NCBI RefSeq assembly: GCF_014132355.1
Contig: NZ_BLZO01000065.1
Coordinates: forward strand, 1 to 39,720
Reading direction: 5' to 3'
DNA: 39,720 nucleotides
Origin: Okeania sp. KiyG1
GTDB lineage: Bacteria; Cyanobacteriota; Cyanobacteriia; Cyanobacteriales; Microcoleaceae
In this document: positions 31,475 through 33,719 of the stretch, in pieces
Layout: each line of letters begins with the position of its first letter
Numbering within the stretch: the stretch's first letter is position 1
Made by a program: the position numbers and the translations under genes
The notes under the pieces: model-generated
What the model was told of the DNA's origin: nothing
Databases searched by the model: none
What the model saw: only the letters and a program-made list of their open reading frames with translations

Positions 31475-31924
31475 TTATAAGCCTAAAAAGGCAGTGCGTC
31501 TTAACTATAAATTAGACATTAAATAATTGTCTAAATATTAAAAATCTCATGTTATTATTACTTATTCAAACCTTCATCCAAATCAATACAGCAAATATCA
31601 TAAATGGCTAGGGAATCAATATCAACTAATACGAAACGAAAGTTATGGTCTCAGTGCGGAGGATTTTGTCAAAACCCTAGTTGTAATAAGTACCTGTTTT
31701 CGGATATTGGAGATGAATCTGTCAGTATAGCCAATGCTGCTCATATTATTGGCGCAGGAAATACTGGACCTCGCTCAGAACACGCACTAGCTGATTCTAT
31801 ACAAAAGAATGGTACGTCTAACTTAATTATGCTTTGTCTTGATTGTCATAAGATGATAGATGAACTTGAGGATAAATATTCAGTCGAAAAAATCTGCGAA
31901 TGGAAAGAGCAACACTCTATTCAT

Positions 31925-32082
31925 TAATTGATAATTGATAATGGATAATTGATAATTACAAGAAGGTTAAAACCGCTACGGAATTGAATATAAGGAAATA
32001 TTATTTCTTTATTTCCCCTTAAAAGGGGAGGCTTTAAACCAGAATTATTTAATTATTAATTATTAATTATTAATTATTCGGT
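31925..32082. mobile_element. Family A insertion 1 in the HNH gene
   Basis: 158 bp, inverted orientation: TAATTGATAATTGATAATGG at the left, TCCCCTTAAAAGGGGAGG hairpin, AATTATT tandem, and the TTCGGT end at 32082. It separates HSIH from KIQALF; deletion joins the two reading frames exactly. No target duplication is seen, unlike families B and F. Confidence 0.72.
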
Positions 32083-32611
32083 AAAATCCAAGCACTTTTT
32101 AAGACTCTGATAACCACTGATGAAAATGAGATTTTGAGAGAAGTAAATGACCTTTTAGAAGAAAATAGGTCTATTTTTGAGGAATATGGTCCATTTTCAG
32201 AACAGGCAACAAAAAGAAATTCAGGCGATGTGAAAAAAGTATGGAAGAAAAGATGTCTTGACACAATTTTACCTAATAATCAAAAAATTATTGATTTAAT
32301 TGAAGGGAATAAACGCAATTTTAAATATCCTTGGGAGCTTGATAGACAAATGCTTCGATATAAAATTCATGCGGATTCTTTCAAAGAAAATTGTCTTTTT
32401 GAAGAGAAGGTAAACGATTACAAACTTTTTCCACGAGAGTTCGATCATTTTGTGAAAAATAAATTAGGAATACAAACGCAAGATTTAGAAGTTAGAGGGG
32501 AAGAGGAAATAGAGTACAGAAAAAATACCATCTCCAAATATATAAATGAGTATTTAGCAAATCATTCATTTATCAAAGAAATGAATACTTTAAATAGGGC
32601 AATATTCAAAG

Positions 32612-32637
32612 GTAAACATTTCCTACGGAATACTTAC
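32612..32637. mobile_element. 26-bp palindromic nano-element (family F end)
   Basis: Imperfect palindrome beginning GTAAACATTTCC and ending GGAATACTTAC, flanked by ATTCAAAG (32604-32611) and ATTCAAAT (32638-32645), an 8-bp target duplication with one mismatch. It equals the terminal hairpin of family F (compare 4378-4400, AAGCATTTCCTACGGAATGC). Removing 34 bp restores A-I-F-K-F-I-L-S-D-E. It is too small to encode or fold anything beyond one hairpin. Confidence 0.75.
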
Positions 32638-32683
32638 ATTCAAATTTATTTTAAGTGATGAAAGGGAACTAAAAGTATTTGTT

Positions 32684-32820
32684 ACCGAAAAATTGTGGTA
32701 TAAAGCCTCCCCTTTTAAGGGAATAATAAATAAAAATTTTCATCTCTTTGTCAATCCTCTTCTTTTCCAGGAGAGGTAATTCTAAATTCGCGCATTCTAA
32801 ATTCTAAATTCTTGAATAAT
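32684..32820. mobile_element. Family A insertion 2 in the HNH gene
   Basis: 137 bp with TTACCGAAAAATTG at the left (from 32682), GCCTCCCCTTTTAAGGGA hairpin, CCAGGAGAGGTAATTC, and a TCTAAAT tandem end. TACC occurs at both junctions. Deletion joins ELKVFVT to YYFTEYTLEK in frame. Boundaries are uncertain by a few bases. Confidence 0.65.
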
Positions 32821-32908
32821 ACCTATTACTTTACTGAATATACACTTGAAAAGATTCAATCAGTCGATCCAAATATAGACGCTATTATTTGCTCTAATCC
32901 TTATTCTA

Positions 32909-33155
32909 ATTAGGGCTTGCTGATTAAATCTAAAAGCATTGACTTATATTGGTTGTAGCATTTTTTTGTCTAAAAAAGTGTCAGTTTTTCGGTGGAAAAA
33001 GTTCATGCATGCTAGTATTTTGGAACGATTATGGCAGAACAATCTTGGGACTATTTTTCCGACTACCTTCTCTATAATTCCCATTTCTCCTGTCTCCTGT
33101 CTCCTGTCTCCTGTCTCCCACCCCAGCAAAAAGACTTTCCATAAGTAAACCCTAA
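32909..33155. mobile_element. Family B insertion with perfect 8-bp target duplication
   Basis: 247 bp from ATTAGGGCTTGCTG to AGTAAACCCTAA, flanked by TTATTCTA at 32901-32908 and 33156-33163. Element plus one duplication is 255 bp, a multiple of three, and removal gives A-I-I-C-S-N-P-Y-S-I-S-A-K-K-E, one open frame. Internal AAAGCATTGACTTATATTGG and CTCCTGTCTCCTGTCTCC match the other B copies. This copy defines the element's true ends. Confidence 0.85.
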
Positions 33156-33719
33156 TTATTCTATAAGTGCTAAAAAAGAATGTATCAATAGTAATATTGG
33201 TCTTTTTCTGCTCAGAGAATTCATGGGAGCAATTCGTTATCAAGGGGAAAAATATTTTAACTATCTGCTTAAGGATGAGAAAGCAAGCAGGATAAGTAGA
33301 TTATCATCTGCATTTAAAAAAGTGAAATTCTTAAATGTAATTGTAAAGTTTATCTTTTCGGTTCTTATCTTAGGCAGAAAATATTTAATGACATAGATAT
33401 AATATTAGTTTATCCTGACAAGAATACAATGAGTGGAATTGAACTTATAAAAAATGAAATAAATAAATCTTTTCAAGGAAGTGAAATAAAAATTTATTTT
33501 ACTATTTGCTCGGAAAATTAATTCTCAAAAATGGAACTTATTTATGATAATCAAGAGCAGATTCTTTAGGTTTGCAGTAATAAAAGATTGATAATTTCAT
33601 GCTATATTTTGGCATGAGTAACTCCTAAAAATCCCCTTGTCTAGCTATTGGTGAACGGGGCGTTACAAAATTTAGATTATGTCGCCAAAATTTCACGCTC
33701 CTAAATTAGTAACTTTAAT

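Follow-up and report, generated by a model that had tools for sequence, protein, structure and literature searches.

The stretch of DNA analyzed here, a window of 39,720 nucleotides from Okeania sp. KiyG1 (contig NZ_BLZO01000065.1, forward strand), contains at 31604-33569 (+) a single pseudogene of a three-component system, which is split by four dispersed repeats and additionally carries a frameshift and an early stop. The three components are a protein that joins an HNH nuclease domain to an alpha-helical domain (HNH-alpha), a middle component (M) and a minimal nucleotidyltransferase (N). Together they form an inherited unit. On plasmids and prophages it usually consists of three genes in direct succession, mostly with overlaps, and in Okeania it is fused into one gene.

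An original prediction, made from the sequence alone, had recognized an HNH piece, a middle piece and a nucleotidyltransferase piece with a GS..DID motif in order on one strand, and this arrangement is borne out by the pieces at 31604-31924, 32083-32610 and about 33282-33566 (+). The first of them (31604-31924, +) encodes 107 amino acids of the HNH nuclease domain, including the conserved cysteines, which in such domains have a role in zinc binding, and the H/N/H residues, which have a catalytic role. Its frame stops at the start of insert 1 (31920-32080), a high-copy dispersed repeat of about 158 bp that accounts for 161 extra bp. The second piece (32083-32610, +) covers the alpha-helical part of HNH-alpha and the beginning of M, corresponding to residues 106-282 of the intact protein P0003 from Okeania hirsuta (alpha profile, E-value 4.4e-37). 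It is followed by insert 2 (32612-32645, about 34 bp with a 26-bp palindromic repeat at 32612-32637), by a short M remnant (32646-32685, +) identified by DNA alignment with three Okeania relatives, by insert 3 (32686-32816), a high-copy dispersed repeat of 131 bp, and by another M remnant (32817-32905, +), identified in the same type of alignment. Insert 4 (32906-33151), a high-copy dispersed repeat of 246 bp, precedes the end of M with the linker (33152-33345, +), which corresponds to P0003 residues ~323-391 (87% identity over 323-391). The remnant of N with its GS..DxD motif (about 33282-33566, +) shares 80% identity with P0003 residues 370-464, with stops inside the aligned region; it is frameshifted and ends early.

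The inserts were called against the intact O. hirsuta gene (L011:5137-6531), with edges that are uncertain by a few bases. A base-by-base alignment of the two shows identity at 1613 of 1649 shared positions, with four stretches occurring only in the window. All four inserts are repeats of the genome. Inserts 1, 3 and 4 each match at least 47-49 places in the same 10.98-Mb genome (the window's own place included, 40 candidates scored per insert), with at least 40 near-full-length places for insert 1, again counting its own. The palindromic 26-bp core of insert 2 is found at 20 places with at most three mismatches, its own included, whereas the reversed control yielded none. The idea that four repeats break one frame was thus correct as far as the repeats are concerned, but it did not account for the frameshift and the early stop in the last part, and the product of about 515 amino acids predicted after repair has to be replaced by the 464 amino acids of the intact O. 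hirsuta protein. An intact copy elsewhere in the same genome, which is rated 92% complete, was not found, as all five matches of the 464-aa protein fall in the window locus.

At this locus, the nearest relatives of the window all come from Okeania (92-97% identity). In O. hirsuta (L011), the gene is intact and forms one open frame of 464 amino acids (P0003) at the same locus, between the same neighbors as in the window. From their translations, we take these neighbors to be a glycosyltransferase-like gene upstream and a small membrane-protein gene together with moaA downstream. Insert 1 is absent from O. hirsuta and from Okeania sp. SIO2B3 (L012), with the third relative (L013) being uninformative due to unrelated sequence at this place; none of the three relatives carries insert 2 or 3, and insert 4 is found at the same place in Okeania sp. 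SIO2B3 while being absent from the other two. Most of the HNH part is missing in L012, where an open reading frame (ORF) runs from the HNH end through the alpha-helical domain into M. In L013 the HNH part is wholly missing and there is a break between the alpha-helical domain and M, followed by an ORF that runs from M through N. Since the junction between the alpha-helical domain and M is open in L012 and that between M and N in L013, the fusion in Okeania is not an accident of one record. That the HNH and the nucleotidyltransferase part might always belong to two separate genes, or that no homolog might span the junctions, had been considered in the original prediction; for Okeania, two separate genes are refuted by the intact 464-aa ORF and by the ORFs of L012 and L013, all of which span junctions. 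Broken copies were seen in three of the four Okeania records, with the breaks in L012 and L013 possibly being in part an effect of assembly (both are metagenome assemblies with repeats at the 5′ breaks). The ratio of nonsynonymous to synonymous substitution rates between the Okeania copies is 0.25-0.51 and is based on few changes, so that only weak constraint is indicated.

At 30000-31616 (+), the terminal 3′ portion of the glycosyltransferase-like gene forms a tandem repeat with a period of 313-314 bp, which has up to five copies and extends to where the HNH gene begins. On the other side of the pseudogene, the small membrane-protein gene is present as a tandem duplicate (33720-34397 and 34557-35114, +), with the copies 717 bp apart and 96% alike over 300 bp; O. 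hirsuta contains one such ORF at the corresponding place.

Outside of Okeania the three components are usually encoded separately. Among the 14 tested loci besides that of O. hirsuta, 13 contain three consecutive genes in the order HNH-alpha, M and N, namely a chromosomal locus of a cyanobacterium of the same order (genome G306, L010), eight plasmid regions (L014-L021) and four contigs from a virus collection (L025, L032, L033, and L034). HNH and a Pol-beta-type nucleotidyltransferase in one protein, the pairing that the original prediction had regarded as unusual, therefore holds for Okeania but is an exception elsewhere. The remaining locus (L024, genome G120 of the same phylum) consists of two genes, the first of which encodes a 379-aa HNH-alpha protein with a C-terminal extension of the size of M and is overlapped by the N gene; this protein was rejected as an HNH-alpha-M fusion, as the extension has no significant match to the M profile (E-value 0.049 over the expected region). 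The HNH-alpha proteins have about 230 amino acids, M about 130 or 215 and N about 70-135. Measured in 12 loci, the distance from HNH to M is -41 to +3 bases and that from M to N is -43 to -1 bases.

With leave-one-out profiles, which retain relatives of the tested locus, N was detected in each of the 15 loci and M in 14 of them, L024 being the exception. The alpha-helical domain was also found in all 15, a count which follows from the choice of loci, while the counts for M and N are independent of that choice except for L010 and L011; these two were found with the middle piece of the window (P0002), which spans the alpha-helical domain and the start of M. M was also used as a query in two viral scans, which recovered only contigs already known. 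Nine control loci that have a related HNH and lack the alpha-helical domain (seven of 265 other matching plasmid records plus L031 and L054) contained neither this domain nor M nor N, the lowest E-value being 0.13. With N in none of these controls and in all 15 loci, a chance neighborhood of HNH and nucleotidyltransferase is ruled out. In the plasmid collection, M matches occurred in 13 of 72,556 records (1 + 8 + 4), and these are the same 13 records that top the HNH-alpha list. As the 13 include sets of near-duplicates (Ensifer 3, Rhizobium 3, Klebsiella 2), eight of them are distinct, and the regions of these eight were examined. The 265 further plasmid records match the HNH-alpha query at E-values of up to 0.001, and one of them contains a SAVED protein from Acinetobacter pittii, with 88% of the query aligned at 23% identity and an E-value of 1e-3. 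Across 12 loci, the three genes show correlated protein distances (0.84-0.90), a level that was not attained in any of 9,999 permutations; this test omits L011 and L024 (counted as fusions) and L020, in which N is split over two frames and which was also left out of alignment A17. The split Rhizobium leguminosarum N gene (L020:7247-7590) suggests that this copy may be decaying, too. The N genes at L018:7313-7606 and L015:7105-7434 are missing from the distributed plasmid gene table, but both are open frames with GS..DxD. Two more contigs, L029 and L030, end at the HNH-alpha gene and are not part of the 15 loci.

The cassette looks rare, yet its range includes cyanobacteria, alpha- and gammaproteobacteria and prophages. 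The sequence covered comprised cyanobacterial genomes, one scan of species genomes, plasmids, phages, Escherichia coli genomes (with one DNA query) and the viral collection. Only three of 386 cyanobacterial genomes, the window's own included, match the alpha profile. Phage records yielded a single distant HNH match (L054) that lacks the alpha-helical domain, M and N. Searches at the DNA level with the L021 cassette against E. coli genomes and with the L034 cassette against phages found nothing, and several scans of viral contigs returned zero or one relative.

Concerning the individual components, the conserved columns of the HNH domain are kept in all 17 aligned HNH parts, that of the window included, and family and profile matches assign the domain to the Cap5 type. 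The GS..DxD motif of N is invariant, with a spacing of X9 in eight, X8 in three and X7 in four of 15 proteins. NTP_transf_2 is matched by 11 of the 15 at an E-value of 0.01. Among PDB sequences, the N profile best matches the putative nucleotidyltransferases 1ylq and 9xbd; HI0073 is matched as well, and so are DNA polymerase X entries with E-values of about 1e-3. Since the model of the fused chain P0003 is poor outside HNH-alpha (mean predicted local distance difference test score of 60), the assessment of M relies on the L034 model and that of N largely on sequence. In the L034 model M is tentatively predicted to contain one or two restriction-endonuclease-like folds devoid of conserved catalytic residues. 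The conserved catalytic acidic and lysine residues of PD-(D/E)XK enzymes were not found in the alignment of 15 M sequences, in which a tyrosine just past the third strand (Y160) is the only invariant residue among columns of at least 70% occupancy. Two acidic columns, each kept in 13 of 15 sequences (L034 positions 178 and 209), both lie after the third strand. Family matches of M are limited to single members (Pfam E-values of at least 0.02, PADLOC of at least 0.0024), and PDB sequence matches have E-values of at least 0.075. SAVED or other sensor folds do not appear in the lists of structure matches of M, which is no proof of their absence. In the annotation of the eight plasmid regions M is "hypothetical" in all eight and N is hypothetical or unannotated in five. 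The middle domain of the original prediction is a real piece, although it had not been recognized as a component of its own.

The earlier guess of a role in defense is supported by the genomic surroundings of some loci. Named defense genes are found near the cassette in three of the eight plasmid regions: a Shedu gene adjoins it in Phaeobacter (L017), DRT3a/b adjoin it in Novosphingobium (L015), where a nucleotidyltransferase-HEPN gene is located further out, and phospholipase D and ABC-three-component (ABC-3C) genes are nearby in Polymorphobacter (L018). The other five regions (Acinetobacter, Vibrio, Ensifer, Rhizobium, and Klebsiella) contain no gene named for defense. A P-loop NTPase and DUF4238 are present in the Ensifer region, genes of an integrative and conjugative element (ICE) in that of Klebsiella and a DUF1837 gene, presumably of the Hachiman type, in that of Rhizobium. 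On the viral contigs, whose viral surroundings are partly due to selection as a viral collection was searched, the neighbors include a terminase (L025), a portal protein and a terminase (L029), an integrase (L032), an integrase and a repressor (L033), and, on L034, a portal protein together with an origin-nicking protein. The families of these two proteins are presumably those found in P2-like phages, the cargo sites of which often carry defense genes.

The cassette shares parts with several known systems. The type of its HNH effector domain is also that of Cap5 from the cyclic oligonucleotide-based antiphage signaling system (CBASS), which according to PMC8568899 degrades DNA once its SAVED domain binds 3′,2′-cGAMP. 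In comparison to CBASS with a Cap5 HNH-SAVED protein and a CdnG/CD-NTase, the cassette has the alpha-helical domain instead of SAVED, a minimal instead of a large nucleotidyltransferase and the additional M, and it is laid out as three consecutive genes or one fusion. Matches to SAVED-HNH models are confined to the HNH part in P0003, P0004 and the L017 protein, as judged at the sequence level only; in P0003 they end by about residue 125, with HNH-alpha proteins being about 230 amino acids long. No cyclase model was among the PADLOC matches of 15 N proteins at an E-value of 0.001, and one protein had a weak match (E-value 0.024). Plain CBASS is therefore ruled out, with neither SAVED nor a large cyclase being seen. 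The HepT/MntA pair (HEPN/MNT, type VII toxin-antitoxin) likewise has a minimal nucleotidyltransferase, and according to PMC7641770 MntA inactivates HepT through the addition of three AMPs to a tyrosine. However, the cassette contains an HNH nuclease rather than a HEPN RNase, a GSX7-9DXD rather than a GSX10DXD motif, the N gene in last position and M as a partner. HEPN gave no family match in 15 M proteins (E-value 0.1) nor in P0003 and P0004 (E-value 1), and with the other motif spacing and the reversed gene order plain HepT/MntA is ruled out as well.

A related HNH is also present in the PADLOC candidate PDC-M68A and in an SduA model with HNH, both of which are matched by 10 of 10 HNH-alpha proteins. 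The PDC-M68A match stops soon after the HNH domain, covering about 106-128 of 253 positions in three proteins (2-109 in L017), and neither M nor N had a PDC-M68 model among its PADLOC matches. As only the HNH part is matched well by PADLOC-DB 2.0.0, finders built on this database would miss the cassette. Two HNH homologs that lack the alpha-helical domain are located in ABC-three-component loci without this domain, M or N, and no ABC ATPase lies between or overlaps the cassette genes in the loci examined. Among PDB sequences, the HNH-alpha profile best matches 9om4 ("HNH endonuclease", 435 aa; E-value 2.4e-29); this match is limited to the HNH part (profile positions 7-115), and no paper was found by the PDB code. 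A description of a cassette of HNH-alpha, M and minimal nucleotidyltransferase was not found in the literature searched, including passages of PMC3710099, PMC12839542, PMC7641770, and PMC8568899; bioRxiv and most subscription papers were outside the search, so that this is no proof of novelty.

Regarding function, the most likely reading, to which we give about even chances, is that the HNH protein is a nuclease for immunity or addiction and that N controls it by way of M. HNH-alpha, M and N would form a fixed complex, with HNH possibly as the DNA-cutting effector and M as a scaffold or a sensor of nucleic acids; gene order and natural fusion point to an effector, a binder and a regulator in fixed proportion. 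By analogy to MntA acting on HepT, N might regulate the nuclease through nucleotide transfer to the complex, either to M or to HNH, with the invariant tyrosine after the third strand of M as a conceivable acceptor. Infection or an invading element would then lift the block and release the nuclease. That N acts as a brake rather than as a trigger, and that the role is directed against phages, are guesses. Taken further, the cassette might represent a new mobile immune class in which a Cap5-type HNH DNase is linked through the pseudo-nuclease M to a minimal nucleotidyltransferase; the latter would switch the DNase by covalent nucleotidylation, for example on the invariant tyrosine of M, and not by a diffusible cyclic nucleotide. 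This would place MntA-like chemistry on a CBASS-type effector, with the Okeania protein as a single self-contained polypeptide, and we regard this extended proposal as possible but rather doubtful.

A CBASS-like mode of signaling, in which N makes a nucleotide signal upon infection that is bound by M or the alpha-helical domain and switches on HNH, appears unlikely to us. The HNH domain is of the Cap5 kind, and an HNH effector next to a nucleotidyltransferase follows the logic of CBASS, as exemplified by an ordinary-looking CBASS-type pair on a Geminocystis plasmid that was included as a control (L047:2011-4149; a nucleotidyltransferase gene of 987 bp followed by an HNH endonuclease gene of 1149 bp). 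Nevertheless, with neither a SAVED domain nor a large cyclase seen, a diffusible signal is less likely, N is minimal in size with near-absent matches to cyclase models, and such a signal would make little sense in a single fused chain. Alternatively, the cassette could be an addiction module that keeps plasmids and prophages in their hosts, with HNH as the toxin, M and N as the antidote and no specific role against phages. Its location on plasmids, in an ICE-like region and on prophages, its mostly overlapping genes and their coupled inheritance fit this explanation, and so does the lack of a named defense gene in five of the eight plasmid regions; it is nonetheless improbable in our view, since the cassette is also chromosomal in cyanobacteria, has Shedu, DRT3 or ABC-3C neighbors in the three other regions and would have its putative antidote genes downstream of the toxin gene. 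More improbable still is an enzyme that cleaves foreign nucleic acid by HNH, holds it by M and adds nucleotides to the ends by N, thereby blocking repair or copying. Such an activity would agree with the physical coupling of a nuclease, a nuclease-like fold and a transferase in one chain and with the DNA polymerase X matches of the N profile, but N has no extra primer-holding domain and the top PDB matches of its profile are the above-mentioned putative nucleotidyltransferases.

If control of the nuclease by N through M proves to be true, a DNase domain common to CBASS would be placed, via a degenerate nuclease fold, under a different switch, namely a minimal nucleotidyltransferase of a kind familiar above all from RNase toxins. 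This would link two large families of conflict systems and offer a compact, naturally fused system of 464 amino acids for biochemistry.

Apart from the pseudogene, the window contains a HEARO RNA (Rfam RF02033, 122 bits) at 19635-19875 (-), directly upstream of a 490-aa HNH-bearing ORF at 18140-19612 (-). This ORF looks like IscB, and we presume the HEARO RNA to be its omega RNA. An 898-aa ORF at 20680-23376 (-) is presumably a ThyX-like thymidylate synthase, seemingly with two in-frame inteins.
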